This document shows, one piece after another, positions 7,438-47,947 of a stretch of 56,051 nucleotides of DNA (position 1 is the first letter of the stretch; each line of letters begins with the position of its first letter). Below the pieces are notes generated by a model that searched no databases, was not told where the DNA came from, and worked only from the letters and a program-made list of their open reading frames with translations. This stretch comes from a virus. The stretch spans positions 1 to 56,051 of IMG/VR virus record IMGVR_UViG_3300009163_000041. One strand, given 5' to 3'. A program made the translations under genes and the position numbers.

Positions 7438-7914
7438 TTACCCAATCACTTTATACAATTCGAAGCTGTTTGGCAAGCCTAATTCTTGGTTTACCAATTC
7501 CTTTTCCAAGCGGATCAAGATTTGGTCACGGATCTGTTGGAACGCATATGGGATGTGTCCGAGTTGATTGTGAATCGACTGAATTGCCTTTGCCGTTACC
7601 AAGTCCTCATGGTTTCCAAAGTGCTTGGCAAGAAGAACAGCGTTCTCCGTGTGTAGGTTATTTTCCTCATTCCGCTTGTGCTGTGCATGAATTGCGCTTG
7701 CTCCAGTCCTTGCCTTCGCCCTACTCTCTTGACGAATCCGAACCGCTACTGGATTGCTTTTGAGGTTGGCGATCAATGCCTTTGCCCAAGGATCAGATCC
7801 AGCCTTGATCTTGCCGTCGAGCAACTCCACCTCGGCAATATCGTTGGCTTCACAATTTGTAGATCCTTCGTTCTCCAGTTCCTGTACTCGCTGTGCGTAT
7901 GTTTTTTTGTTCAT
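7438..7914 (-). CDS. Hypothetical protein, 158 aa; C-terminus encoded by a promoter
   Basis: MNKKTYAQRVQELENEGSTN; ribosome-binding region GCGAGGAA. Mostly helical with a basic middle (RIRQESRAKARTGASAIHAQ). The last ~15 codons (LGLPNSFELYKVIG) coincide with the promoter at 7448-7476 for the next gene. In sister units the coding frame stops just before the promoter, so here a stop may have been lost. Confidence 0.7.
   Translation of the reverse strand: MNKKTYAQRVQELENEGSTNCEANDIAEVELLDGKIKAGSDPWAKALIANLKSNPVAVRIRQESRAKARTGASAIHAQHKRNEENNLHTENAVLLAKHFGNHEDLVTAKAIQSIHNQLGHIPYAFQQIRDQILIRLEKELVNQELGLPNSFELYKVIG
7448..7476 (-). promoter_or_regulatory. Repeat-family promoter inside a 3' coding end (TTGCCA-17-TAAAGT)
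   Basis: TTGCCA at 7476-7471, 17-base spacer AACAGCTTCGAATTGTA, TAAAGT at 7453-7448. It lies within the last codons of the 7438-7914 gene and drives the 6780-7403 gene. Confidence 0.7.
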
Positions 7915-7940
7915 GGTCAGTTCCTCGCTTTCTTGGTTGT

Positions 7941-7969
7941 ACTCTATCAGATGCTAATCGGCTTGGCAA
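7941..7969 (-). promoter_or_regulatory. Repeat-family promoter (TTGCCA-17-TAGAGT)
   Basis: TTGCCA at 7969-7964, 17-base spacer, TAGAGT at 7946-7941, with TAAAAATAATAC upstream. It sits 27 bases before the ATG at 7914. Confidence 0.75.
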
Positions 7970-7978
7970 GTATTATTT

Positions 7979-8260
7979 TTAGATGGATAGCGCATCGTTG
8001 GCTGTCCAGTCCTCAAATCGCAGTGCCTCCTGCTTGACTGCGCCGTTATCGGTCTGGGCGTTCACCTCGCCCCTCGTTCCCCAAGTGAATGACTCACTAT
8101 TGATGTCTGGGTCTAAGGATGGGAAGAAACGCCGTGCCTCAGATAGCGTTTTAAAGACAAACACCTTGAATTGTCCGAAGCGTCTTACAACTACTTGGAT
8201 GGGGAGTTTGTCCTGTTTGGCTAGTGATCTTAGCTCGTTTACTGATTTTTGGTTGTTCAT
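7979..8260 (-). CDS. Hypothetical protein, 93 aa (Met-Asn-Asn group)
   Basis: MNNQKSVNELRSLAKQDKLP; ribosome-binding site AAAGGAA. A basic beta-alpha region (QVVVRRFGQFKVFVFKTLSE) is followed by an acidic C-terminus. No promoter of its own is visible, so it probably shares the transcript from 8776. Confidence 0.7.
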   Translation of the reverse strand: MNNQKSVNELRSLAKQDKLPIQVVVRRFGQFKVFVFKTLSEARRFFPSLDPDINSESFTWGTRGEVNAQTDNGAVKQEALRFEDWTANDALSI

Positions 8261-8286
8261 GTTGGCGGTTCCTTTCTTTGTTAGGG

Positions 8287-8487
8287 TTAGAGCCAGCCGT
8301 TCAGTGCGTACCAGCTAATATCGCTTTTGATGAAAGCCAGTCTCTGCTTTGGATTTAGTCTGGTATTCCGACAGTGCCTGTATCCGTCTTTGTCGAAGTA
8401 GTAGTACGATCCGTTTTCTCCTTGATGTATCAACACCCCAAGAAACTCTGCGATGGGGTTTAGGATTTCGATTGCTTGGTTGTTCAT
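8287..8487 (-). CDS. Small hypothetical protein, 66 aa (Met-Asn-Asn group)
   Basis: MNNQAIEILNPIAEFLGVLI; ribosome-binding site AGAAAGGAGCC. A beta-hairpin-like NGSYYYFDKDGYRHCRNTR lies in the middle. Not recognised. Confidence 0.7.
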   Translation of the reverse strand: MNNQAIEILNPIAEFLGVLIHQGENGSYYYFDKDGYRHCRNTRLNPKQRLAFIKSDISWYALNGWL

Positions 8488-8507
8488 TGTTATGGCTCCT
8501 TTCTTGG

Positions 8508-8753
8508 TTAGTCTGTTACTAGTTTTGCACAGGCTCCACCGTCTGGTGAAAGCCCAAGCACAACAACTCCTTCATCTTCTAGTTTCTTTAAGGTCTTGTA
8601 GTGTATGTAAACTTCACTGCTTGGGATGGCTCCAGCGGTAAGTCTTCCGATGTTTTTACCAGCAACACACCATCCACCATTTAGCTCAAGAAACTTTTCA
8701 GCTTGCTCAAGCCTCAAGCGACTTTTTAGATTTTTGAATTGTGTTTCGAACAT
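8508..8753 (-). CDS. Small hypothetical protein, 81 aa
   Basis: Start placed at ATG 8753 (MFETQFKNLKSRLRLEQAEK), which fits the promoter at 8776-8804; an upstream in-frame ATG would lie on the -10 box. The N-terminus is a basic helix; the rest includes VCLGLS-like beta segments and one Cys. It may be a small winged-helix protein, but this is weakly supported. Confidence 0.68.
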   Translation of the reverse strand: MFETQFKNLKSRLRLEQAEKFLELNGGWCVAGKNIGRLTAGAIPSSEVYIHYKTLKKLEDEGVVVLGLSPDGGACAKLVTD

Positions 8754-8775
8754 TTTGTTTTTTCTTTCTACAAGC

Positions 8776-8804
8776 ACTCTACCATATGCCTACCAGCTTG
8801 GCAA
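8776..8804 (-). promoter_or_regulatory. Repeat-family promoter (TTGCCA-17-TAGAGT)
   Basis: TTGCCA at 8804-8799, 17-base spacer AGCTGGTAGGCATATGG, TAGAGT at 8781-8776. It drives the 8753, 8487 and 8260 genes. Confidence 0.75.
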
Positions 8805-8816
8805 GTATTATTTTTT

Positions 8817-8851
8817 GATTCTGGGCAGGGGTTGAACCTACACCCAGAACC
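8817..8851 (-). other. tRNA-like acceptor/T-arm minihelix
   Basis: On the minus strand an outer 8-bp stem (GGTTCTGG with CCAGAATC, one G-U) encloses a 5-bp stem (GTAGG with CCTGC) and the 7-base loop TTCAACC, the form of a tRNA T-arm. D and anticodon arms are not found, so this is not a normal tRNA. The surrounding intergenic stretch 8805-8994 contains no gene. Confidence 0.4.
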
Positions 8852-8963
8852 AGTAATGAGTGACGGTAGTGGATTTACATTGGAACTACCTTGCTCCTTT
8901 CTTTGTCCGAGGTTTCTAATGCGATGAGAGTACGCCGAGGGGATTAAATTTGAAACACCAAGT

Positions 8964-8982
8964 ACTGTAAGAGTCTTACAGT
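8964..8982. promoter_or_regulatory. Perfect 9-bp inverted repeat downstream of 3D-domain gene
   Basis: ACTGTAAGA-G-TCTTACAGT is a perfect dyad with a 1-base centre. As RNA it could fold with 7 pairs and a 5-base loop, but no T-run follows on the minus strand, so an operator or a processing hairpin is as likely as a terminator. Confidence 0.5.
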
Positions 8983-8994
8983 TTTCGAGAGGAG

Positions 8995-9420
8995 CTAGTC
9001 TTTAACGACCCACACCGAAGCGTATTTGTGGGAGTCTGCGAAACGATCTGCTGATGATTTGCTGATGAAGAAAATATCTACGACAGGAAGTTTTCCCTTC
9101 GATGCTGTCTTCTCGATCACTGCCGTTCCTGTGTCGTGAACTTGTCTCACTCCAACGCCCTCGATCATCAGCTTTGTTCCGTAGTCGAATATCCTTGGAT
9201 CACATGCAACGCTGATTCCCTCCTTGAGCGTGTAGCCCGATGAGGATTGAAGCCTTCTTGTCCAGCAATCTTCGTTCCGATGGTAGGTGGTTAGCCTTAC
9301 CTTGATCTTTTTGGGTTCAGCCGTTTTTGATTGTCCAGTCGAAATTGAAGGCATCCCAAGGTTTCCGAAACTCGTCACGACCATCGTATTCACTAGAAGT
9401 GCAATTAAGCACTTCCGCAT
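8995..9420 (-). CDS. Secreted 3D-domain (RlpA/MltA-like) cell-wall protein
   Basis: Start placed at ATG 9420 (MRKCLIALLVNTMVVTSFGN), which gives a signal peptide of ~25-30 residues; the longer frame from 9492 would bury it. The mature part has the three-aspartate fold signature: SVACDPRIFDYGTKLMI, RQVHDTGTAVI, and PVVDIFFISKSSADRF. 3D-domain proteins relate to lytic transglycosylases (MltA, RlpA and resuscitation-promoting factors), so it may act on peptidoglycan in the periplasm. The signal peptide is encoded inside the 3' end of the epimerase gene in another frame (~104-base overlap). Confidence 0.75.
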   Translation of the reverse strand: MRKCLIALLVNTMVVTSFGNLGMPSISTGQSKTAEPKKIKVRLTTYHRNEDCWTRRLQSSSGYTLKEGISVACDPRIFDYGTKLMIEGVGVRQVHDTGTAVIEKTASKGKLPVVDIFFISKSSADRFADSHKYASVWVVKD

Positions 9421-30063: not shown

Positions 30064-31833
30064 TTAGCTAACTTCCGTCACCCGCGCAGTCCCAGCGGTG
30101 GCGAACACAGCCGAGTGGGTGATCGTCGTTTGGTGGTTTGGCACTTCGTAATAATCCCCCGCCGATAGGCGCACTTGATAGGCGATGGTGGTGCATGTTG
30201 CCCCAGCGCAGATATGCAAATTACCCGCCCCCTCGTTGAAAATTGTCAGCACTTCCCTTGTCGCATTATAATTAGCCAGCACGGTAGAGGCGGTTGTGCT
30301 GGTAAAGTTAGAGGTGGTGACTGCCGTGCCTTGAACGGCGAAGGTGTTGGCGGTGACTGAGCCAGAGATGGGCGGGAGGGAGGAGATGGTGACGCTGTTG
30401 CCGATGGTGACTGTGCCAGCGATGCTTAGTGGAGTGCCAGTAGTCCCATACTCTGTGCCAGAATCATTTATTAGGGAAACGCCAATTCGATTTCCGTTTC
30501 CAAAGTTTTCTCCGCTTTTGCCAATCTGAATTGGAACAAATGTATTTTCAAAAGACTCTTTCCCAAAAACATTTGCCGTCACCGTGCCAGAGATGGGCAG
30601 AGGGTTAGTTTGAGACAACATCTCACCATCTGAACCATTCTCTTGAGGAATCCAAAGCACCGACCTAATTGTATTTAGGTCTACATCCGAAATGCCCGCA
30701 ACAACACTTTCGAAGCCAGAAGGATCAGCAAATATGGCAGGGAGGGAGCCGATGGTGACGCTGTTGCCGATGGTTACACTTGCAATAGATACTGGCTGAG
30801 TGGCTGGGAAATTAAGAATCGATGTAGAGCCTGTAACTACTGCTGTGCCGAAGGTGACAGATGCTTGGGTAAAGGTTACCGAGGGAGTACCGCTGATTGA
30901 AGCTGTAACAGAACCAATTTGTGCTGTTCCTGCTGCAATGGTGACTCCGTGAGTCGCAATCTGCGTAAAAGTGACAGACGGAGTTCCGATAATGCTTGTT
31001 GAGCCAGTAATAACTGCAGTTCCGAATGTGACCGATGCCTGCGTAAAAGTAACAGTTTGTGTCGCTGGGAAATTAAGAATAGAAGCCGAGCCAGTTATTA
31101 CCGCTGTCCCAAAAGTAATAGAAGGTGTTCCAGAGATGCTTGCAGTAACTGAACCAATCTGGGCTGTTCCAGCACCAATTGTTACACCATGCGTAGCAAT
31201 TTGCGTAAATGTTACTGATGGAGTTCCAATGATACTGGTAGAACCTGTGATTACTGCAGTCCCAAAGGTAACAGAAGCTTGAGAAAATGTGACAGATTGA
31301 GATGCTGGAAAGTTTAATACAGATACAGACCCAGTAATTGTAGGCTGACTAAATGTTACAGATGCTTGCGCAAATGTAACTGTCTGCGTGGCTGGAAAAT
31401 TAAGAATTGATGTTGAACCAGTTACTACCGCTGTACCGAAAGTAACAGAAGCTTGAGAAAATGTGACAGAAGGAGTTCCAGATATAGTAGCTGTAACACT
31501 TCCACCAATGGTAACAGACGAATTTGCTATAGTAACTCCGTGTGTAACGATTGATCCAATGGTTACAGTACCACCGATTGTAACAGCAGATGCCCGAAGC
31601 TGTGTGTCCGTAAGGCCACCAGTAATCGTTACTTGACCTAGTGTAACCGTAATGTTTTCTAGAGCATTTAAGGTATTTGGTCCCAGCTCCACACCAGAAA
31701 CCGCCGTTGCTATATCTGTAATACCTTGCGTGCCGAAGGATATAACCGTATGTGCTGGGATATGAGAGTTACTTACAAGAATCGTTGAAAGCGTGGTTAA
31801 AGACTGATTCCCATCACGAATTGGTAGTGGCAT
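30064..31833 (-). CDS. Beta-solenoid repeat protein, 589 aa (fibre-like)
   Basis: Start placed at ATG 31833 (MPLPIRDGNQSLTTLSTILV). Residues ~60-370 consist of Val/Thr/Ser repeats such as SVTFGTAVITGSTSI, GTPSVTFTQIATHGVTIG and ILNFPATQTVTF; an ~80-residue unit occurs twice with near-identical protein sequence. The C-terminal third has a different, non-repeated beta fold (ANYNATREVLTIFNEGAGNL ...). Typical of an elongated tail or capsid fibre. No enzymatic motif. Serine and threonine are very frequent. Confidence 0.72.
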   Translation of the reverse strand: MPLPIRDGNQSLTTLSTILVSNSHIPAHTVISFGTQGITDIATAVSGVELGPNTLNALENITVTLGQVTITGGLTDTQLRASAVTIGGTVTIGSIVTHGVTIANSSVTIGGSVTATISGTPSVTFSQASVTFGTAVVTGSTSILNFPATQTVTFAQASVTFSQPTITGSVSVLNFPASQSVTFSQASVTFGTAVITGSTSIIGTPSVTFTQIATHGVTIGAGTAQIGSVTASISGTPSITFGTAVITGSASILNFPATQTVTFTQASVTFGTAVITGSTSIIGTPSVTFTQIATHGVTIAAGTAQIGSVTASISGTPSVTFTQASVTFGTAVVTGSTSILNFPATQPVSIASVTIGNSVTIGSLPAIFADPSGFESVVAGISDVDLNTIRSVLWIPQENGSDGEMLSQTNPLPISGTVTANVFGKESFENTFVPIQIGKSGENFGNGNRIGVSLINDSGTEYGTTGTPLSIAGTVTIGNSVTISSLPPISGSVTANTFAVQGTAVTTSNFTSTTASTVLANYNATREVLTIFNEGAGNLHICAGATCTTIAYQVRLSAGDYYEVPNHQTTITHSAVFATAGTARVTEVS

Positions 31834-31850
31834 ATAGGTATTCCCCTTTG

Positions 31851-32348
31851 TCAAATAACCGCTAGGTACTGTGAGTTCAGATAGTCGCTAAAGTCAAGCT
31901 CTGAAACTCCATCACCAGTAGGATCTGGTGTAACGATGGCAGAAATGACCAATCCCCTATTCCAAGCTGTTTTAGCTATTTGTATAGTAGGAGTTTGCGA
32001 AGAAATCCTAGCCATATAAACATGAAGGTCAATTGAGTTGTCTTGAATCTCAAACTGAAGGCTTTGCCCAGCTCCATAAAGAGAAGCAAAAATATCCAGA
32101 TAGGTAGAATCAAAGGTGCTGGCCGATACCTTTGCCGAGGTGTCTGAATAATCCACAGAAACTTCCATCTCATACACACCGCTGTAAGGTGTGACTAGCT
32201 GGCCTACTGGCTTTGCGGAAATTGCAATATAAGGAAAAAGCTTCGCACCTATCCGTGTAGTTGTATAAACATTTACACCTGTTACGGCAGAAAATAGGGA
32301 AGCTACGGATTGCTCAAGCTGATAGTCTGGTGAATTCGAAATACTCAT
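31851..32348 (-). CDS. Tail completion-like protein, 165 aa (paralogue)
   Basis: MSISNSPDYQLEQSVASLFS; contains TGVNVYTTTRIGAKLFPYIA which aligns with the protein encoded upstream at 32345, so they are duplicates. Position between head completion and tube genes suits a tail terminator/head-tail connector. Confidence 0.62.
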   Translation of the reverse strand: MSISNSPDYQLEQSVASLFSAVTGVNVYTTTRIGAKLFPYIAISAKPVGQLVTPYSGVYEMEVSVDYSDTSAKVSASTFDSTYLDIFASLYGAGQSLQFEIQDNSIDLHVYMARISSQTPTIQIAKTAWNRGLVISAIVTPDPTGDGVSELDFSDYLNSQYLAVI

Positions 32349-33186: not shown

Positions 33187-33849
33187 TTAAAGGGTAATAA
33201 TATTCGCCCCAAGCGTGTAGTCGTCTTGATATACTCCTGTTGGCACTAGGTCATAAGACTCCCTAACGGCAGAAGCTATTATGGCTGGAGATGAATTTAT
33301 CCCAAGAAAGTTCCTAGCCCTTTGAATAAGAAAGGGCATATAGGCAACTGAACTGCAACTTATCGCCCTCAGTCCGTTAATATCAAGCTCGTTCGGACAT
33401 AAGACTACTAGATTTTCCTTTCCGTATATTCCAATAGCTTTTTTGATCACAGCCATTGGATCGTGCCTAACCATCTGACTTATGCCAAAAGGAGCAACAA
33501 GGTCATAAACTCCAAGGTCTGGAGCCATCCAAATATTATCTAAGACGATCCTTTCATCAACCGCCTCTGGAAACTCGCCTCCAAACACAAATTTTTCCCA
33601 TCTTCTATCGCTTGCCCTGTATTCCTCATAAAGCAAAGGCCACACTTCCCTGTTGAACACATAGTCAAACTTTTCATAGGCATCGTTAATTTTCTTATGC
33701 TTTACATAGGTTGTGCATTTTAAAATATCCGCATATTCATCCTTGCACTCAAAAAATACCTCGTCGCCCCTATCTGCAAACAGCTTCGCCAACGGCAACA
33801 TTCTTAATATGTCGCCCAATCTCTGGTGATATTGTATTAGAACTTTCAC
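33187..33849 (-). CDS. GT9-like glycosyltransferase, 220 aa (short)
   Basis: MKVLIQYHQRLGDILRMLPL, then LAKLFADRGDEVFFECKDEY, is the N-terminal signature of ADP-heptose:LPS heptosyltransferase-type (GT9) enzymes (R.GD.....P). The C-terminal part NSSPAIIASAVRESYDLVP with FLGINSSPAI resembles the sugar-binding half, but the length is about two thirds of normal. It overlaps the exostosin/radical-SAM gene (ATGA). Whether it is active is unclear. Confidence 0.72.
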   Translation of the reverse strand: MKVLIQYHQRLGDILRMLPLAKLFADRGDEVFFECKDEYADILKCTTYVKHKKINDAYEKFDYVFNREVWPLLYEEYRASDRRWEKFVFGGEFPEAVDERIVLDNIWMAPDLGVYDLVAPFGISQMVRHDPMAVIKKAIGIYGKENLVVLCPNELDINGLRAISCSSVAYMPFLIQRARNFLGINSSPAIIASAVRESYDLVPTGVYQDDYTLGANIITL

Positions 33850-35699
33850 CCAGCAAAATATTCGGTAACTTTATGCTCCAATGCTTTTTCGGCTTCAAGC
33901 AACTGGATCTTCCTGCCCTTCGTATCTCTAGACTTTATTGCCAAGTCTGCATTACTTTTAGTATAGGTATCCAACTGCTCATTATCCATAGATCCTCGCA
34001 GTCTTGCTGGCACTCCGCATCCTGTGCAGAAATGCTTAATCTGACCCTCGAATTCTCGAATTGGCTTTTTCCACCACCCCTCAACTACTGGATGTCCGTT
34101 GTCTGTTCCCCTCGCAAGATCGAAAGAAGCTGCGACCTCACAAAAATACGCCCTTAGATTCCCCTTGTTCTGAACGATTGATGCAGACCATTCCCTATTT
34201 ACATCACATCCAGCGATCTTCTCCCACATCTCCTTTTCTGGATATAGGTCTTTTACTGCCGTAAGCAAAGGTGCGTGATGCGAGTTTCCGACATAATATC
34301 CTCCGTTGAATCCACGCTGATTGACCATTACATTGTGAAGATCTTTAAGCTTTTCATTTGCCCTTTCCTCGTTATGAGGATTTAGATTTAAGCCTCCGAA
34401 TGTCTTTTCAATTACCTCACGATGCTTAAAGTAGTTGTTTGTCCATAGTCCCCTTTGGTGCTGATTCGGAATCTCCTCACGAAATACCTCGCATAGCTTT
34501 TCAAACTGCGTATGCACACAGGGATTACCCCCGATCATGGCAATAATTCCCCCAAAATCCTTGAGACTGCGAAGTGCTAAACGGAAGTTTTCTGGGGTCA
34601 TCTCCCATAGCGAGTCTTGATTTTTAAGAAGGCGAGTGCAGTTAGAGCAAGCCAAATCGCACTTGTTCGTCACATCCACGCAGATAATGTGCATATGCTC
34701 TGGGCTTCTCATCTTGCCAATAGCAATATCGGCGTAAGATTGACTCTCAAGATTCTCGGCTACTTTTTCCATAATAAAATCCTTTTCAAATATATGTCTA
34801 TCTTTGACTATGTTTTTCTGCTTTTCTTTAATCTCACCAATAGATAGCCGTTGGATAAAGTCAGTCAAGCCAAACAAGTGCCGTTCCTCTGTGACATAGC
34901 AATACTTGCTCCAATCAATTTTGTCTCCAAATGGAAGCACATATTCGTCTGATACCAGTATCGGTATTGAGCCATTGAGTAAAGCCTCTGCGAATCGAAA
35001 CGACCATCTTCCGTACCCAGCAGGACATAAGGTGAATACCGACCTAGCCATAAGATCGTGGTAGGTGATTTCTCCTAGCTTCTGATTAACCTCTAGTGGA
35101 GTTCCAATCACAACTTTATCGCTTTCAAATCTTCTCTTAAACTCCAGCAATCTCCCTCCACGGATATGATCTGGAGGAAGGTGAAGCTGGGTCATGCTTC
35201 CCATAAATGAAAGCAGAATGTCCCTTTCAACGCTCTGATGTTTTATAGGCTGGGATTGATAGGGTAAAATCGCTATATCCTGCTTGTGTAGGCTTGCCAA
35301 TGACTCAAGTACAATTAGAATAAAGCGATTATCCATCCAACTATACTTTTTATCGTAAGCTCGAAGTGGGTTGGCTTCGTGCGTCATCTCGTACTTTGAC
35401 TCTGCTCTTTGTCCTACATCTCCAGTTGAAACAAGGATATGCCTTCCCCTGTGAAGATAGGCACAATGATTTACAAGAAGTTCTGGATCGACATTTGCGA
35501 ACTGCAATCCAGCCGTGAACATAGGGACAAAGAAAAAATCGGCTTCGTCTGGGTCTTTCGTTTCGTATTTCTTGAAGAAGCTATAGAAATCCACCAAGTA
35601 CTGAAGATGTGGGTAGAGTCTGTTTAGCTCTGCATAAAATAGATTTCTCTGCCATATCTCATTTGATAATATGAGATCGTGGTAGATAAATATTTTCAT
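33846..35699 (-). CDS. Exostosin (GT47-like) / radical SAM fusion protein, 617 aa
   Basis: Residues 1-~325: an exostosin-type glycosyltransferase with VFTLCPAGYGRWSFRFAEAL followed by LNGSIPILVSDEYVLPF, the donor-site signature of GT47. Residues ~335-617: a radical SAM domain with the iron-sulfur motif CDLACSNC (Cys347, Cys351, Cys354), IGGNPC in the place of the SAM-binding GGEP motif, and a C-terminal Cys set (Cys498, Cys520, HFCTGC 558-561) that may hold an auxiliary cluster. I do not know of such a fusion in phages. It may modify the sugar or the protein to which sugar is added; this is inference. Joined by overlaps to the methyltransferase and GT9 genes. Confidence 0.82.
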   Translation of the reverse strand: MKIFIYHDLILSNEIWQRNLFYAELNRLYPHLQYLVDFYSFFKKYETKDPDEADFFFVPMFTAGLQFANVDPELLVNHCAYLHRGRHILVSTGDVGQRAESKYEMTHEANPLRAYDKKYSWMDNRFILIVLESLASLHKQDIAILPYQSQPIKHQSVERDILLSFMGSMTQLHLPPDHIRGGRLLEFKRRFESDKVVIGTPLEVNQKLGEITYHDLMARSVFTLCPAGYGRWSFRFAEALLNGSIPILVSDEYVLPFGDKIDWSKYCYVTEERHLFGLTDFIQRLSIGEIKEKQKNIVKDRHIFEKDFIMEKVAENLESQSYADIAIGKMRSPEHMHIICVDVTNKCDLACSNCTRLLKNQDSLWEMTPENFRLALRSLKDFGGIIAMIGGNPCVHTQFEKLCEVFREEIPNQHQRGLWTNNYFKHREVIEKTFGGLNLNPHNEERANEKLKDLHNVMVNQRGFNGGYYVGNSHHAPLLTAVKDLYPEKEMWEKIAGCDVNREWSASIVQNKGNLRAYFCEVAASFDLARGTDNGHPVVEGWWKKPIREFEGQIKHFCTGCGVPARLRGSMDNEQLDTYTKSNADLAIKSRDTKGRKIQLLEAEKALEHKVTEYFAG

Positions 35700-36244
35700 T
35701 TAATCTTTAACCAGCAATCTCGTATAATTTCTGGGGCTTCAACAAGCTCATCCACGGCACGAATTACTCCGCTATGTGCCAAAATATAGTCATGCCCAGC
35801 AAGTATTCCTCCATTTTTAACCTTTGGCATCCAAGCAAGAATGTCTGCCTTTACCGATTCGTACCTGTGGTCTGCGTCTATAAAAACCGCATCCAGAGAT
35901 TGGTCTGCATACATTTTTGAGGCCGAAACGCTGTCAGTCCTAATCGGATTGATAAGATTTATAACTGGCCGAAGATTATCGATAAATGTTCCGAAAAGAG
36001 AGTTTTCCTTTATGTCGCTCATATCCTTATGCTCGTCTGAGCCAGACCAAGTATCTACGACATCAATGCGTAGCTTTTTGTGTTGTGCCTCAACCGCAAG
36101 ATAAGATGTGCTTGCCCCCTTCCATGCCCCAACCTCCACGATATGACCTCCCTCTGGAACAGATTCAACGATTCTCTTGTAAATATCTTGATAGTTAAAC
36201 CACTTCTCTCCAAATTTATCATCCATCCAGTAGTGCTGAATCAC
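35696..36244 (-). CDS. Class I SAM-dependent methyltransferase (Methyltransf_24-like), 182 aa
   Basis: GTG start overlapping the upstream TGA (GTGA). GGHIVEVGAWKGASTSYLAV (SAM-binding GxGxG-type motif), LRIDVVDTWSGSDEHKDM, then DAVFIDADHRYESVKADILA and GGILAGHDYI are the blocks of O-methyltransferases acting on sugars or phenolics (macrocin-O-methyltransferase-like). Placed inside the sugar cassette, it probably methylates a sugar. Confidence 0.8.
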   Translation of the reverse strand: MIQHYWMDDKFGEKWFNYQDIYKRIVESVPEGGHIVEVGAWKGASTSYLAVEAQHKKLRIDVVDTWSGSDEHKDMSDIKENSLFGTFIDNLRPVINLINPIRTDSVSASKMYADQSLDAVFIDADHRYESVKADILAWMPKVKNGGILAGHDYILAHSGVIRAVDELVEAPEIIRDCWLKIK

Positions 36245-37920
36245 TTGTTTCGTTGCTCAAATATCTTTTTACCAAGATCGTAGTTTGCAACTGCATTATG
36301 CTTTTGGAATACCTCGTCCTGCGGTGCGTTTGTAAAGAATGGGTTATTATGTTTAAAAACCAAGTCTCGTCCGTCCACTTGAATTTCTTTTGTCCGTAGC
36401 GTGAACTCGTTATCAGAAAAGATGCCACTACATTCTGCGTATTCTGGTGCGAATAAATTGCCTCCCAAGTAGTCAAGAGTAGGCTTTGTGCAGATTGCGA
36501 TGCACAGAAGATCGTCTTTTCTATATCCGTCTGATACCGCAAGGACAGCAGGCTTTGTAGGGTCTGGAAGTCTTTTTCGGATTTCCTCATCCCATCCCAG
36601 CGGAGGAACAAAATCATCAGATACTTGAACGATATACTTGCCCTTTGCCTGCTTTGCACAGGCGTTCCAAGCACCCACACACTTTCCATTCGGAGTTATG
36701 ATCTTCTCATTTCCTCCATACTCATCTGCATCTACATCTACCCCTAGAATGTGCTGAATCTTGTTAGGCTGTTTTGCCATCGCCAGCCAAGCCCATCTTG
36801 CACCTTGAAATCCAGTAGGTCTTGCCGTTGCGTGGCATAGCGTAATATCAACCTCACCAAAGTTTTTAACTTTATCTTCTTGCAAAAACTTAACCAAAGC
36901 CTCATCGCCTAATACTCTTGCACAACGCTCATAAAGGTCTGGAGCCTCCCACTTGTAAATAGCTTCTTTTGTAGTCCAGTATGCGATATTAGGAATTGGA
37001 ATTGAACAGGCTGAACGAGCAAGAGCAAGTGCTTCTATGTAGTGTTTTCGAGTGTAGTAATCCTCTGCAATGTAGAATAGTGCCTCGATTCTATGTGGGG
37101 CGAGTGCGTATGCACGAAAAAGCTCCTCACGCTTTGCTACTGGGTCAGAAAGAGAGCGACCAACAATAGTGTGACATTGAACACGAAGAATTGGATCAAG
37201 TGTTGCGTCAGCTAATGCAGTTTTTGCGTGTTGCATCGCTTGATCATACTTTCCAGACAAAAAGTATTCCTCTGCTTTGTAAAAGCGAAACAGATAATTT
37301 TCACGGATAGCTTCGTCTAAAATCCTGTGGTTTCTCGTTACGCTTGAGCCTTTGTGATCTATCGGTGCGTGAGTGATGAGACCAGTGTGTGTTCCAAGTG
37401 CCTTTGCACCTTCTGTGGATGTTGGCTTTAGTTGTTCGTGAACTGGATATTTCCATTTGAACTTTTTATTACGAGTTATGCGTTCACGGACAGGACACAG
37501 GCCAGCCAGAGGAACGGAATATCCAGCAAAAATGCAGTCGTGATCAGTTACCTTTTCGGCTATCGCAAAGAAAGCTTTTTCAGATCCTTCTGGCAGAATA
37601 TCGTCTGCATCAAACCACATACAGAACTCTTTCGTGCAGGCTTCTAGTGCCGTGTTTCTTGCGTCTGCAAAATTATCCAGATGCTCCCAATGACTAGTAT
37701 CATCTTTATTTTTATAGACTACTACTTTTGCCCCAAGCTTACTTGCTATTTCATTAAGAATCGGAAGCCCTTCTTCCGTGTGCTTGCCCATCGCAGAGCA
37801 AAGCACGATTTCGTCTGGCTTTAGTGCCTTGAAAGACTCCAAGGCTCTTGTGATATACTTGGATGCACACTCCCTAGATACGATTGCGTAAAGGGATAGG
37901 GTAAATGGGAATCTGTCCAT
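36241..37920 (-). CDS. Two-domain glycosyltransferase (GT2-like) with TPR-like middle, 559 aa
   Basis: Residues 1-~200: GT-A domain with the metal/nucleotide-sugar site FCMWFDADDILPEG (Asp104-x-Asp). Residues ~205-310: helical repeats (KAEEYFLSGKYDQAMQHAKT, YIAEDYYTRKHYIEALALAR) of TPR type. Residues ~355-559: a second GT-A-like domain (VGAWNACAKQAKGKYIVQVS, then DDFVPPLGWDEEIRK). Large multi-domain enzymes of this type in phages have been linked to glycan synthesis on virions or hosts. First gene of the cassette, 38 bases after the T-run of the capsid terminator. Confidence 0.8.
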   Translation of the reverse strand: MDRFPFTLSLYAIVSRECASKYITRALESFKALKPDEIVLCSAMGKHTEEGLPILNEIASKLGAKVVVYKNKDDTSHWEHLDNFADARNTALEACTKEFCMWFDADDILPEGSEKAFFAIAEKVTDHDCIFAGYSVPLAGLCPVRERITRNKKFKWKYPVHEQLKPTSTEGAKALGTHTGLITHAPIDHKGSSVTRNHRILDEAIRENYLFRFYKAEEYFLSGKYDQAMQHAKTALADATLDPILRVQCHTIVGRSLSDPVAKREELFRAYALAPHRIEALFYIAEDYYTRKHYIEALALARSACSIPIPNIAYWTTKEAIYKWEAPDLYERCARVLGDEALVKFLQEDKVKNFGEVDITLCHATARPTGFQGARWAWLAMAKQPNKIQHILGVDVDADEYGGNEKIITPNGKCVGAWNACAKQAKGKYIVQVSDDFVPPLGWDEEIRKRLPDPTKPAVLAVSDGYRKDDLLCIAICTKPTLDYLGGNLFAPEYAECSGIFSDNEFTLRTKEIQVDGRDLVFKHNNPFFTNAPQDEVFQKHNAVANYDLGKKIFEQRNK

Positions 37921-38020: not shown

Positions 38021-38983
38021 TTACGAAGCGGAGTAAGAGGTCGTGATCAACTGCATCGCAGTAGAGTCGATGACCTTGACCACACGATTCGAACGCACCC
38101 GAAGGATGTTCGAACGGCGACCTTCATCACGATAGCTCTCAGCAACGAAAGGAGCAGAAGCATCTTCGCTCCAGACAATCGTGCGACCCGCACCACCAGA
38201 GGCGAAATCGCCACCAGCAGTTTGACCAACCGCCACATAGGTTGTGGGGAAGATGAACGAACCGCTGAAGGTCTGACCTTTAGCCGCGCTGTTCTTAGCC
38301 GCTTTTCCAACCAACACTTTTTCAACGCCAGCCGCTTGAGCGATTTCAACTTCCGACAACAGACGGCGAGAGTCAGTCGCAACAACACCGAAGAACTGAT
38401 TCTGTGTCAGCGGAGAACGCCGAACGAGATCAAATACTTCTTGATTCATAACAACCGTGTTGGCGATCACACCCTGCTTCAGCAAACGCTGTTTAGCAGC
38501 TGCGACATCGGCCACAAAGTTAATCGTGGAGAGGTTGGTAACAGTGTAGTTGACCAAAGCGGCGGTTGCGGTGAAGGTGCTGGCATTAAATAGGGTTGTC
38601 GCACATTCGGCTTCGTGCCCAATTTGAATGTTGCGGAGAAGAATCTTCGCAGTTTCAGTCTCCAAACCGAAGAAGCGAGATACATCCGAAGCCAACGCAT
38701 CTGGTACAACCTCTTCCAAGCCGTATTCCACGCATGTGAAATTATCGTTATCGAACGCCCTCGAAGAGCGAGGATATGAGCTGCCGGGAGCCACCAAGGA
38801 GGCATCGCTGTTCAAAAGTTCAGCGTTGCCCAAGTTAAGCTTGAGGTACTGTCCAGCACGAACTGGGCTGTTGTAGATCGGGAACAAATCGGTTCCGATA
38901 AATCCCTGATCTGCTTGGCTGGCCTGAATGACCGCCGTTGTGATGTCGCCACGAAGAGTGGCGTTAGAGGTTAGATAAGACAT
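38021..38983 (-). CDS. Major capsid protein, 320 aa
   Basis: MSYLTSNATLRGDITTAVIQ, QASQADQGFIGTDLFPIYNS and, near the end, FVAESYRDEGRRSNILRVRS. HK97-fold, lambda gpE-like by position and composition. Ribosome-binding site AAAGGA, comparatively GC-rich codons and the following terminator all point to high expression. It follows the decoration protein gene. Confidence 0.88.
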   Translation of the reverse strand: MSYLTSNATLRGDITTAVIQASQADQGFIGTDLFPIYNSPVRAGQYLKLNLGNAELLNSDASLVAPGSSYPRSSRAFDNDNFTCVEYGLEEVVPDALASDVSRFFGLETETAKILLRNIQIGHEAECATTLFNASTFTATAALVNYTVTNLSTINFVADVAAAKQRLLKQGVIANTVVMNQEVFDLVRRSPLTQNQFFGVVATDSRRLLSEVEIAQAAGVEKVLVGKAAKNSAAKGQTFSGSFIFPTTYVAVGQTAGGDFASGGAGRTIVWSEDASAPFVAESYRDEGRRSNILRVRSNRVVKVIDSTAMQLITTSYSAS

Positions 38984-44422: not shown

Positions 44423-44541
44423 TCCTTCTTGGAATCTTTGGTCTTCTTGATCTCTTTGAGTGCTTCGATCATGTTGTCCAGAGATTTGTCATCACGGCTG
44501 GACAATTCATCTGCCAGTGGATCAGTCGAAGAGGTTGCCAT
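44419..44541 (-). CDS. Small acidic/basic helical protein, 40 aa
   Basis: MATSSTDPLADELSSRDDKS, ending MIEALKEIKKTKDSKKD. AAAGG lies 7 bases before ATG; it overlaps the 3' end of the large multidomain gene by 20 bases and the plus-strand gene's stop. Function unknown. Confidence 0.55.
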   Translation of the reverse strand: MATSSTDPLADELSSRDDKSLDNMIEALKEIKKTKDSKKD

Positions 44542-47500
44542 GGGTTGCCTTTACTGGAGCAGTGCCTTTGCTCCGATCTGCGTTTCCGTCAAGAGAGTAA
44601 CCGATGTCGGCTATCTCCTCAGAGGTAATTTTGTTCCAAGTGTTCCTAGCTTGTTGGGCTGATCCCTTGATGTAATTGTAGGGAACATAGCGTCCATTGG
44701 GTTTATTGAATCGCTTGGAAGCTCTGGTCAAAGCCACTTTATCATCCACATCCACATGAACTATCCCGATTTTATATCCAACCGATTTTAGAGTTTTTGC
44801 CATGTCTGCAACCTTATTAGAGTTTTTACCAGTGATGTCGATCAAAAGATTGTGATTTTCCATAACTGCCCTTGGGAATACGATCTTCTCGGATATAAGC
44901 GCAGACTCCTCATGGAACGCACCAGCATTCCAGCCCTCAAATCCTTTTGACTTACCCTTAACGGAATCTGGATCGATCTTAGTTGTTTCTTTTCCGTTTA
45001 GGATCTTTTCTGCAAATGGTCTTCCAGTAGTCGTTTTCCCGCTGGCTGGAGATCCCATGAGAATTACTGCAATAGGATTGTCCGACTTGGCTTTGGGATT
45101 CAGTTCGCTTTCAATAACGGAATCCTTCCACGCCTTGTGTTCTGGGGTTGGGTTTTCAAATGTTTCTACGATGTCTTTCTTCTGGATGTATCGCTTGGGA
45201 TCTCTCAGCGACCAATGGGTTACTGGGGCATTCTCCGAACCCTCTGCTTCGGCAACTTCCTTTTGCAATTTGGCCATCTTTTCAATTGTTATTTTAGTTT
45301 TTGGCTCTGCATTTAGTCTTTCAATCTCTTTTTCAATTTCATCAATTGTAGTGCTTGTTTCGGATTCTTCCTCGCCTTTGGATGATTTCCCCTTTGCCTT
45401 TCCCTTGGCTCCTCCACCGCCCCCCCCACCCTTCCCAGACCATCTTCCCTTTTCATCCCTTGGCTGATCTGGATTGTAAAACTCGATTTTCTCTCCGTTG
45501 TATTGGAAAACGAATGATTCGATTGCTACCGCTTCGTCAAACTGGAATCCCTCGGAACCATCATCTGGAAGTTCAATCACGATGGGTACATAAATCAACT
45601 TACTTCCATCTGCCAACTCTTTTGTCGCCACAGGGGATGGTTTGGGGCCGTTCTCGTAAACATATTTCCTAATCGAATCGACCTCGAAGATCTGCATTTT
45701 TTTGATGGCACTTGGAGATACTGCGCCGTCCTTGGTAAAGATTTTTGACACAGCCGCCAGCCCAGTTTTGCCCATCTTTTGAGCCTTGGTTGTTGGGATG
45801 TTGTCGGCAACGCTTTTAAATCCATCTGCCAATACGCTGATAATCCCGATCATTTGCCTCCCGCCAATCTTGGGCGATGACCCAGAACGCAGTACGCCGT
45901 ACTCCATGGCTAGATCCAAACTGTCCGTGCTGTACACCTTGCCACCACCCCAAACGCCACTTTTAGAGGGTTTTAGGCCGTCTCTTCGTATGTCTTTAAG
46001 CACATCTGCTGAAGTTCCGTGATAAAGGGTAGTTGCCTCCCCAGTCTTTTTGCTTGCCTCCGCTGGATTATCTTGCGCCCACCTTGGGGTGGGTGTAGCT
46101 CCTTCAGCTATTGCTCCACCCCCAGTCCACTTTCCAGAGTTATCTCTCTGTTGGTTTGGATCGTAGAAGTCTATCGCTTGATAGCTCCTGTAATAATTAC
46201 GCCCTCCCCATCGTTGTACTCCGAGGCGAACACGATTCGGGAAAGATCGCTCATAGTTGTCGATGATTGATTTGTAGGCTTTTTTTCCTGCAATCCTTGT
46301 GTCTCCACCGATGAACTCTCCGACTCCCCTGACTGCTTCTGATTTTCCATTTATTGCTCCTAGAAATTTGGCAACATTAGCGGTCAACTGCGATCCTTGG
46401 TCTAGGATTGTTACGCTAGTCTTGGCTCTGTCGCCTACCATTGTTCTAAAACTAATCCCATTGTCTGACAATATTTTTCTGACCTCATCCATTGGCCTGT
46501 CTGCTGAGATTTTATGCAGAATATCGGGACCGTCCTTCTTCTTCTGAAAGGCGACAACTGCCTTTTGGTTTAGGCTCGCCCCCAGCTTGGATGCCGTGTA
46601 TTTAAGTTGATCAAAGTCCTTCACTCCCTTTACATCGATCTTAATCGAATTCTCTGCCCCATCTTCCCAGTCACCCACCCCAGACTCGACCTTCCCATTC
46701 ATGTCTTGCTTTTTGATGGCATCTCTTGCGATGCTAACGGCTCTCGCATGTTCGGGCGAATCGATCATCTTTTTCGCCTCTTCGTAATTCATGTTCTCTT
46801 TAATGTTTGGAGAGACAAGGATTTCACCGCCAGAACCACCACTACCAGTCCACTTGCCAGATGCATCTCTCTCTTGGTTTGGATCGTAGGCGAAAGTAGT
46901 TACCTCAAATGTCTTCTTTCCCTCAATCTCTTCACGAATGGCAACTGCAATTGCATCTGCCAAGTAGTCTGCCACATCGTCCATGTCTGGATCTTTTTCG
47001 AGCGTTACAACATTACGGTTTGCCGACATGGGGCGAACCCCGATTCCCTTGCGTACTATGTTTGATACTTGCCTACCGCCTTCAACTTTTCTGTATTCGG
47101 CTACTGCACCTTTTACGAATCCCCTAAATGCAGATTGACCAGCAACTATACCCCCTAGTTGTGGGTTAATTAAGGCTCCAATAAGAATCTTATACCGATC
47201 TCCGTGTGCGCTTTTTATTGCCTCAATGCCTCCTTGAGATCCGATGCTGATCGTTCTAGCAATCCCACGCAAAAACTGCTGGCCGTTGTCACTAGCAAGC
47301 CAATTTTTGATCTGATAGGCTTTAGAAGCCCCATATTGGGTAGCCATCTTAGCTCCATTCGCAATAGCTGTAACGCCCTTTATAGCCCCTTTTACGCTCG
47401 ATTTTGCCATATCTAGGGCTGGATTTCCCCTTTGAGCCTTCTCGATGAGCTTGCCCTTGAACCCACCGCCACCACCACTCCATTTGCCAGACTCGTCTCT

Positions 47501-47947
47501 TTCCTGTGATGGATCGTAAAGCAGTGTTGCCCCTTGTTCCTTTAGGGCTAATAGATCTGCCTTTAATTGTTCGAAGTTGGTCTTGTCGGTAATCGGACCC
47601 CCAACTATCCATGCATCGCAAGTTCTCAGTGAGGCGCATTTAAAATCAAAGATTTCGCAGTAACCCAGATCGCCAGCTTGCTCAACTTCCTTTGCATCCA
47701 TCCCAATCCCCTTTGTAATACATCCGATAAGCCTTGTTGTCTGGTTGAATCCAGCGCAGTTCCCGCAACGCATCGTCTTGGCTTCTTTAACCGATCCACC
47801 AAAGATCTTTGCTTTCGCCGTCCAGTATTCCTCATTCGGCTCCTTGGGATTGGCGGGGCCGTAATGTGCTACATCAATAGCCTTCTGCCGATTGGCTAGG
47901 TTGGTTTTGATGTCCTGTGTTGGGAGTGGACACTTACTCTCAGCCAT
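44522..47947 (-). CDS. Multidomain minor head protein with four repeated linkers, ART-like and zeta-kinase-like domains, 1141 aa
   Basis: Residues 1-143: Cys-rich (MRCGNCAGFNQTT, IGCITKG, GYCEIFDFKCASLRTC), probable zinc site. At residues 144, 354, 595 and 824 stands a 14-15-residue linker of the form YDPNQxRDxSGKWxG. Between linkers: a Gly/Ala-rich hydrophobic helical region (160-350), an alpha/beta unit (375-590), an ADP-ribosyltransferase-like unit (TTLYHGTSADVLKDI, GGGKVYSTDS; 636-~800) and a P-loop kinase resembling zeta toxins (VILMGSPASGKTTTGR, 961-976; LLIDITGKNS; VHVDVDDK). It sits directly after portal, as minor head and capsid-injected proteins do. Intact, not obviously frameshifted. 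Confidence 0.8.
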   Translation of the reverse strand: MAESKCPLPTQDIKTNLANRQKAIDVAHYGPANPKEPNEEYWTAKAKIFGGSVKEAKTMRCGNCAGFNQTTRLIGCITKGIGMDAKEVEQAGDLGYCEIFDFKCASLRTCDAWIVGGPITDKTNFEQLKADLLALKEQGATLLYDPSQERDESGKWSGGGGGFKGKLIEKAQRGNPALDMAKSSVKGAIKGVTAIANGAKMATQYGASKAYQIKNWLASDNGQQFLRGIARTISIGSQGGIEAIKSAHGDRYKILIGALINPQLGGIVAGQSAFRGFVKGAVAEYRKVEGGRQVSNIVRKGIGVRPMSANRNVVTLEKDPDMDDVADYLADAIAVAIREEIEGKKTFEVTTFAYDPNQERDASGKWTGSGGSGGEILVSPNIKENMNYEEAKKMIDSPEHARAVSIARDAIKKQDMNGKVESGVGDWEDGAENSIKIDVKGVKDFDQLKYTASKLGASLNQKAVVAFQKKKDGPDILHKISADRPMDEVRKILSDNGISFRTMVGDRAKTSVTILDQGSQLTANVAKFLGAINGKSEAVRGVGEFIGGDTRIAGKKAYKSIIDNYERSFPNRVRLGVQRWGGRNYYRSYQAIDFYDPNQQRDNSGKWTGGGAIAEGATPTPRWAQDNPAEASKKTGEATTLYHGTSADVLKDIRRDGLKPSKSGVWGGGKVYSTDSLDLAMEYGVLRSGSSPKIGGRQMIGIISVLADGFKSVADNIPTTKAQKMGKTGLAAVSKIFTKDGAVSPSAIKKMQIFEVDSIRKYVYENGPKPSPVATKELADGSKLIYVPIVIELPDDGSEGFQFDEAVAIESFVFQYNGEKIEFYNPDQPRDEKGRWSGKGGGGGGGAKGKAKGKSSKGEEESETSTTIDEIEKEIERLNAEPKTKITIEKMAKLQKEVAEAEGSENAPVTHWSLRDPKRYIQKKDIVETFENPTPEHKAWKDSVIESELNPKAKSDNPIAVILMGSPASGKTTTGRPFAEKILNGKETTKIDPDSVKGKSKGFEGWNAGAFHEESALISEKIVFPRAVMENHNLLIDITGKNSNKVADMAKTLKSVGYKIGIVHVDVDDKVALTRASKRFNKPNGRYVPYNYIKGSAQQARNTWNKITSEEIADIGYSLDGNADRSKGTAPVKATHGNLFD

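Follow-up and report, generated by a model that had tools for sequence, protein, structure and literature searches.

The 56,051-nucleotide viral record analysed here (the window) contains a gene that appears to join an exostosin-type glycosyltransferase to a radical SAM enzyme, raising the question of whether such a fusion is real and, if so, what it would make. The gene occupies positions 33846–35699 of the minus strand, where a single frame of 617 codons runs without interruption, as the first-pass annotation had claimed, and encodes a GT47 (exostosin) domain followed by a radical SAM domain. Since the radical SAM half usually occurs as a gene of its own, we considered that an error of assembly or frame might have joined two genes. 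Searching for the same architecture elsewhere recovered it in ten further viral contigs (L001–L008, L038 and L039, the L008 copy ending at the contig edge), with an identical junction at identities down to 66%, and in a Beijerinckiaceae MAG, on a contig of 270 kb (chromosomal locus L028, 50% identity); apart from this MAG, the fusion-bearing contigs come from about eight metagenomes. Values of dN/dS against near relatives, with saturated pairs left out, were 0.04–0.10 for the GT47 half and 0.01–0.03 for the radical SAM half, far below 1, and show that the gene is under strong purifying selection. Because the fusion recurs in other contigs and is under such selection, it is no artefact; recurrence already refutes that reading, whose probability we regard as negligible. 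The GT47–radical SAM fusion is thus genuine and conserved in an uncultured phage family. It was rightly described as occurring in a phage, but it is not confined to phages, given the Beijerinckiaceae chromosomal copy; a test for a single origin of the phage and chromosomal GT47 fusions gave a p-AU of 0.06.

We characterised the N-terminal half (residues 1–317; 34749–35699, minus strand) by Pfam, alignment to EXT1, conservation and Foldseek. Exostosin_GT47 (PF03016) matched residues 42–274 with an E-value of 7.5e-26 and a score of 91.5 bits, above the curated cut-off of 33.4, bearing out the exostosin signature noticed at first pass. This half carries the motif CPAGYGxWSFR..E, in which R235 and E238 are invariant among eight aligned fusions, and its stretch CPAGYGRWSFRFAEALLNGSIPIL aligned with CLVPRGRRLGSFRFLEAL of EXT1, placing E238 opposite the glutamate of LEAL in the EXT1 stretch SFRFLEAL. 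By its position in the alignment, that residue would be Glu349 of EXT1, at the donor-site helix, which is reported to be essential for the transfer of GlcA and to be shared across the family, the plant xylosyltransferase IRX10 among its members (PMC9178029). The likeness to EXT1, EXT2 and EXTL3 comprises the GT-B fold, the CPxG..SFRF.EAL signature and the donor-site glutamate (PMC9178029). With a full-length model of modest confidence (pLDDT 74.5), whose arrangement of the two domains is therefore tentative, Foldseek returned EXT1/EXT2 at the top (3.6e-12), and BtrN and SpeY appeared in the same list through the other half of the protein. Exostosins differ, however, in that the animal enzymes combine GT47 with GT64 rather than with a radical SAM domain, and their GT47 domains are about 15% identical to that of the fusion.

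The C-terminal half (residues 318–617; 33849–34748, minus strand) was analysed by conservation, AF2 modelling and Foldseek. It contains a CxxxCxxC motif (C347, C351 and C354, within CDLACSNC), a GGNP motif and a four-cysteine site (C498, C520, C558 and C561), the last four lying exactly where they had first been placed. Pfam Radical_SAM matched residues 342–416 with an E-value of 3.8e-4, by itself below the curated cut-off. Modelled alone, this half gave a pLDDT of 92.1 and a pTM of 0.90, and Foldseek ranked SpeY (7wzv, 6.9e-10) first, followed by BtrN (4m7t, 7.9e-6), DesII and AbmM, then SuiB, MoaA and others, with TM-scores to SpeY and BtrN of 0.50–0.59. In a profile search against the PDB, BtrN was the best match (E=0.0048) and the only radical enzyme below 0.01. 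Because the best solved matches of a confident model are radical SAM enzymes, we conclude that the C-terminal half is one too, as its motif had indicated; structure prediction, proposed at first pass as a check, placed the radical half nearest to SpeY/BtrN and the full-length model nearest to EXT1/EXT2. SpeY and BtrN, the closest solved folds, are twitch radical SAM dehydrogenases that act on aminocyclitols in antibiotic biosynthesis, DesII acts on a nucleotide sugar and AbmM on a nucleoside. SpeY and BtrN have both the CxxxCxxC motif and a four-cysteine auxiliary site, but are only about 15–17% identical to the radical half and have no glycosyltransferase fused to them.

Conservation of the cysteines was assessed across 69 relatives, 60 of them distinct. 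C347, C351, C354, C498, C558 and C561 are present in all 69 and C520 in 68, so the loss of the motif among homologues, which would have counted against the first reading, did not appear. Three cysteines would bind the SAM cluster and the other four, in a C-terminal extension of SpeY/BtrN fold, a single auxiliary cluster, which is the twitch pattern. The auxiliary cluster of BtrN, which catalyses a two-electron oxidation, likewise has four cysteine ligands, unlike that of MoaA, which has an open site (PMC9012708). On this analogy we hold, with moderate confidence, that the radical half would dehydrogenate its substrate rather than epimerise or dehydrate it, although the reaction type need not carry over from SpeY and BtrN, because the TM-scores are only 0.5–0.6. 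It might instead be a sugar epimerase or dehydratase resembling NeoN or AprD4 and acting on a glycan together with the glycosyltransferase; the connection to sugars and glycosyltransferases would fit equally, the near-invariant C340, C394 and C403 (67–68 of 69) could provide a hydrogen donor, and the peptide epimerase EpeE is found lower in the fold list (6e-4). As no cysteine beyond the seven cluster ligands is strictly invariant, and as the dehydrogenases SpeY and BtrN rank far above EpeE, we consider an epimerase or dehydratase unlikely.

The fusion gene belongs to a cassette of four minus-strand genes, each overlapping the next by 4 bp: a GT2 and TPR protein (GT2–TPR; 36241–37920, Pfam GT2 1.5e-10), a methyltransferase of the TylF/CmcI-like sugar O-methyltransferase type (35696–36244; Methyltransf_24, Pfam 1.4e-18, with weaker TylF and CmcI matches), the fusion itself and a conserved 220-aa protein (33187–33849) kept in nine fusion phages. 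Pfam upheld the methyltransferase and GT2 labels of the first-pass annotation, and the overlaps were as described, but its GT9-like label found no support: the 220-aa protein resembles a GT9 heptosyltransferase, or GT-B, by eye only, none of ten homologues matched any Pfam model, including Glyco_transf_9, and no PDB match was found. The cassette lies between the major head protein gene directly upstream (38021–38983, minus strand; phrog_1005, 7e-27) and the head–tail genes. In the viral contig L039, whose major head protein belongs to phrog_283 and has no significant match to that of the window, the GT2–TPR, fusion and 220-aa genes occur in the identical order. Because this order is kept despite a different head protein, the three genes travel as a module.

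Profile searches of the GT2–TPR protein against the PDB matched SunS (3.3e-7) and GmaR (9.5e-7), both of which are protein glycosyltransferases. Because of this resemblance, and because the cassette lies between capsid and head–tail genes, a virion protein is the acceptor we infer, and we give even odds to a virion glycan as the product. The cassette could also alter a host surface polysaccharide and serve superinfection exclusion, a role often assigned to phage glycosyltransferases (PMC7029224), and related chromosomal loci (L028, L029) do lie in bacterial glycan gene neighbourhoods. The same two observations that point to the virion speak against this, however, and Pfam found no flippase, polymerase or lipid-carrier transferase family in the four cassette genes; a host-surface role therefore seems rather improbable to us.

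Several other features of these genomes were observed. In two relatives, the interval that separates the major head protein from the sugar cassette holds extra proteins of 249–253 aa that have similar motifs (WADxSGN; L001:4859–5620 and L007:4226–4975), a variable decoration site; they are absent from the window. Just downstream of the head–tail genes, at 30064–31854, the window encodes a Ser/Thr-rich, repetitive protein of 596 aa that varies in length among relatives and is a candidate glycan acceptor. Between the portal and capsid genes (44522–47947) lies a 1141-aa protein with a C-terminal zeta-toxin/kinase-like domain (Pfam 9.8e-18), and a second, distant glycosyltransferase (1384–2814; Glyco_trans_1_2, 2.6e-6) is found at the opposite end of the window. 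PADLOC returned no defence-system match.

The relatives of the radical half are mostly free-standing proteins about 300 aa long. Among 57 viral loci that encode such a free copy, a GT2 gene is the immediate neighbour in 48, and a terminase gene lies within three genes of it in 48 as well, counts that are not independent because many of the contigs are closely related. Methyltransferase homologues also adjoin free radical SAM genes, and in four Beijerinckiaceae genomes a free radical SAM gene is followed by a GT2 gene. Where at least 2.5 kb of upstream sequence was available, 11 of 25 free-copy loci, again with many close relatives among the contigs, have a UDP-glucuronate decarboxylase (UXS) gene upstream; none is found near the cassette of the window itself. 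As judged by sequence, this assignment in the relatives' cassettes is firm, the L012 protein matching solved UXS at 4.8e-98 (next SDR family, 2.3e-32) and the protein adjoining the chromosomal L028 fusion at 3.2e-124 (next SDR family, 2.7e-40). In dozens of uncultured phages (L009, L012–L024, L030, L041–L085 and others), a cassette of GT2 and radical SAM genes, with an optional UDP-glucuronate decarboxylase before and methyltransferase after them, directly precedes the terminase large subunit gene.

A second kind of fusion has the reverse order, radical SAM followed by GT2, and occurs in L080/L081 (645 aa, GT2 Pfam 2.7e-27) and in a Pseudomonadota genome (L121, 733 aa). These proteins group together, separately from the GT47 fusions (support 100/99); a 66-row tree had put L080 on a long branch next to the phages with GT47 fusions, a placement we set aside when a smaller tree including L121 gave it its own clade. 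Apparent long N-terminal extensions in the chromosomal relatives L117 and L118 (frames of 530–667 aa) were likewise discarded as non-coding, GC-rich DNA, the sequences before the usual start being unrelated. Two fusion orders involving two unrelated transferase families are a strong argument for a substrate common to the radical SAM enzyme and the glycosyltransferases. The coupling of sugar transfer to radical modification proposed at first pass is strengthened by this independent GT2 fusion, by the GT2 neighbours in phages and chromosomes, and by the folds of cyclitol and sugar radical enzymes, while its reaction and acceptor are known by inference only. We consider a sugar the probable substrate of the radical half.

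Three side observations concern radical SAM proteins. Distant relatives of 30–38% identity that keep a CSNCTRLL motif (L090, L091–L093) occur in other phage backgrounds and form the outgroup of the radical SAM family. In the L083 cassette, a gene that lies between GT2 and terminase (7600–9156) encodes a B12-binding radical SAM protein, with Pfam matches at 2.6e-22 and 2.9e-11, that is possibly a sugar C-methyltransferase. In the fusion gene of the window, codon 310 (about 34770–34785, minus strand) is an in-frame ATG with AAGGA upstream at start-site spacing, and initiation there could yield the radical SAM half as a separate protein, roughly as large as the standalone family members.

Two other substrates were weighed against a sugar. 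The radical half might modify a protein or peptide side chain in the manner of a RiPP maturase, with the GT47 half glycosylating the same protein: its architecture is common to SPASM/twitch maturases, SuiB and SkfB are in the fold list, and SunS, which the GT2–TPR protein resembles, is a bacteriocin glycosyltransferase. SuiB and SkfB nevertheless rank below four radical enzymes of sugars, cyclitols and nucleosides, NCBIfam RiPP maturase models matched the N-terminal radical SAM segment only, all far under their cut-offs, and the recurrent UDP-glucuronate decarboxylase points to a sugar, leaving this reading with little probability. Hypermodification of phage bases is more improbable still. Radical SAM enzymes and glycosyltransferases do act on DNA in some phages, and the gene adjoins terminase in many relatives, but a search whose positive controls were detected found no thymidylate synthase/hydroxymethylase-family gene in any of eight phage records, the window among them and most of them fragments, and the same radical enzyme occurs in bacterial glycan loci.

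Taking sugar oxidation as the preferred reading, we propose, as an evenly poised possibility, that the fusion is bifunctional and builds glycans, one half transferring a sugar and the other oxidising a hydroxyl group of that sugar. The GT47 half, judging from its fold and donor-site glutamate, would use a nucleotide sugar as donor and pass its sugar to an acceptor. The radical half would cleave SAM at the CxxxCxxC cluster and abstract a hydrogen atom from a hydroxyl-bearing sugar carbon; the second electron would pass to an auxiliary [4Fe-4S] cluster at C498/C520/C558/C561, leaving a keto-sugar, much as the fold and cysteine pattern of BtrN, which acts on a cyclitol, would predict. Together with the GT2–TPR, methyltransferase and 220-aa genes, the outcome would be an oligosaccharide that carries modifications, O-methylation probably among them, and that is most likely attached to a virion protein.

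Known systems resemble this arrangement in part. The GT47 protein of Synechococcus phage S-SKS1, both the nearest annotated phage record and the top viral fold match, is similar to the GT47 half only (27.6% identity over 160 aa), and differs in being 281 aa long and lacking a radical SAM half. The radical SAM phage proteins of phrog_13987, which lack GT47, match the radical SAM core at E=0.0052, too weak for membership. In the chlorovirus PBCV-1, virus-encoded glycosyltransferases build the glycan on the capsid protein (PMC11571054), and the GT-B fold of its A075L xylosyltransferase appears in the fold list of the full-length model; PBCV-1, however, is a eukaryotic virus whose GT114 enzyme and other glycosyltransferases are encoded by separate genes, without a radical SAM enzyme. 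Among 50,697 phages no record covers 80% of the fusion protein, and no plasmid does; none of the best 50 viral structure matches has both halves, and a literature search found no paper describing a GT47–radical SAM fusion. Each half is a known kind of enzyme; the architecture and its phage cassette appear undescribed within the collections searched.

The association with glycosyltransferases provides a testable substrate class for a radical SAM family that has no assigned function in the libraries searched. More tentatively, these loci may represent a widespread, hitherto undescribed phage system in which radical SAM enzymes oxidise sugars on the virion during or right after glycosyl transfer, sometimes within one polypeptide of either the GT47–radical SAM or the radical SAM–GT2 kind. 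If true, this would be the first case of a viral glycan tailored by radical chemistry and the first bifunctional transferase/radical enzyme. If shown, a single compact enzyme with both activities would become available for producing oxidised sugars, and radical chemistry would join the means by which phages decorate their particles.
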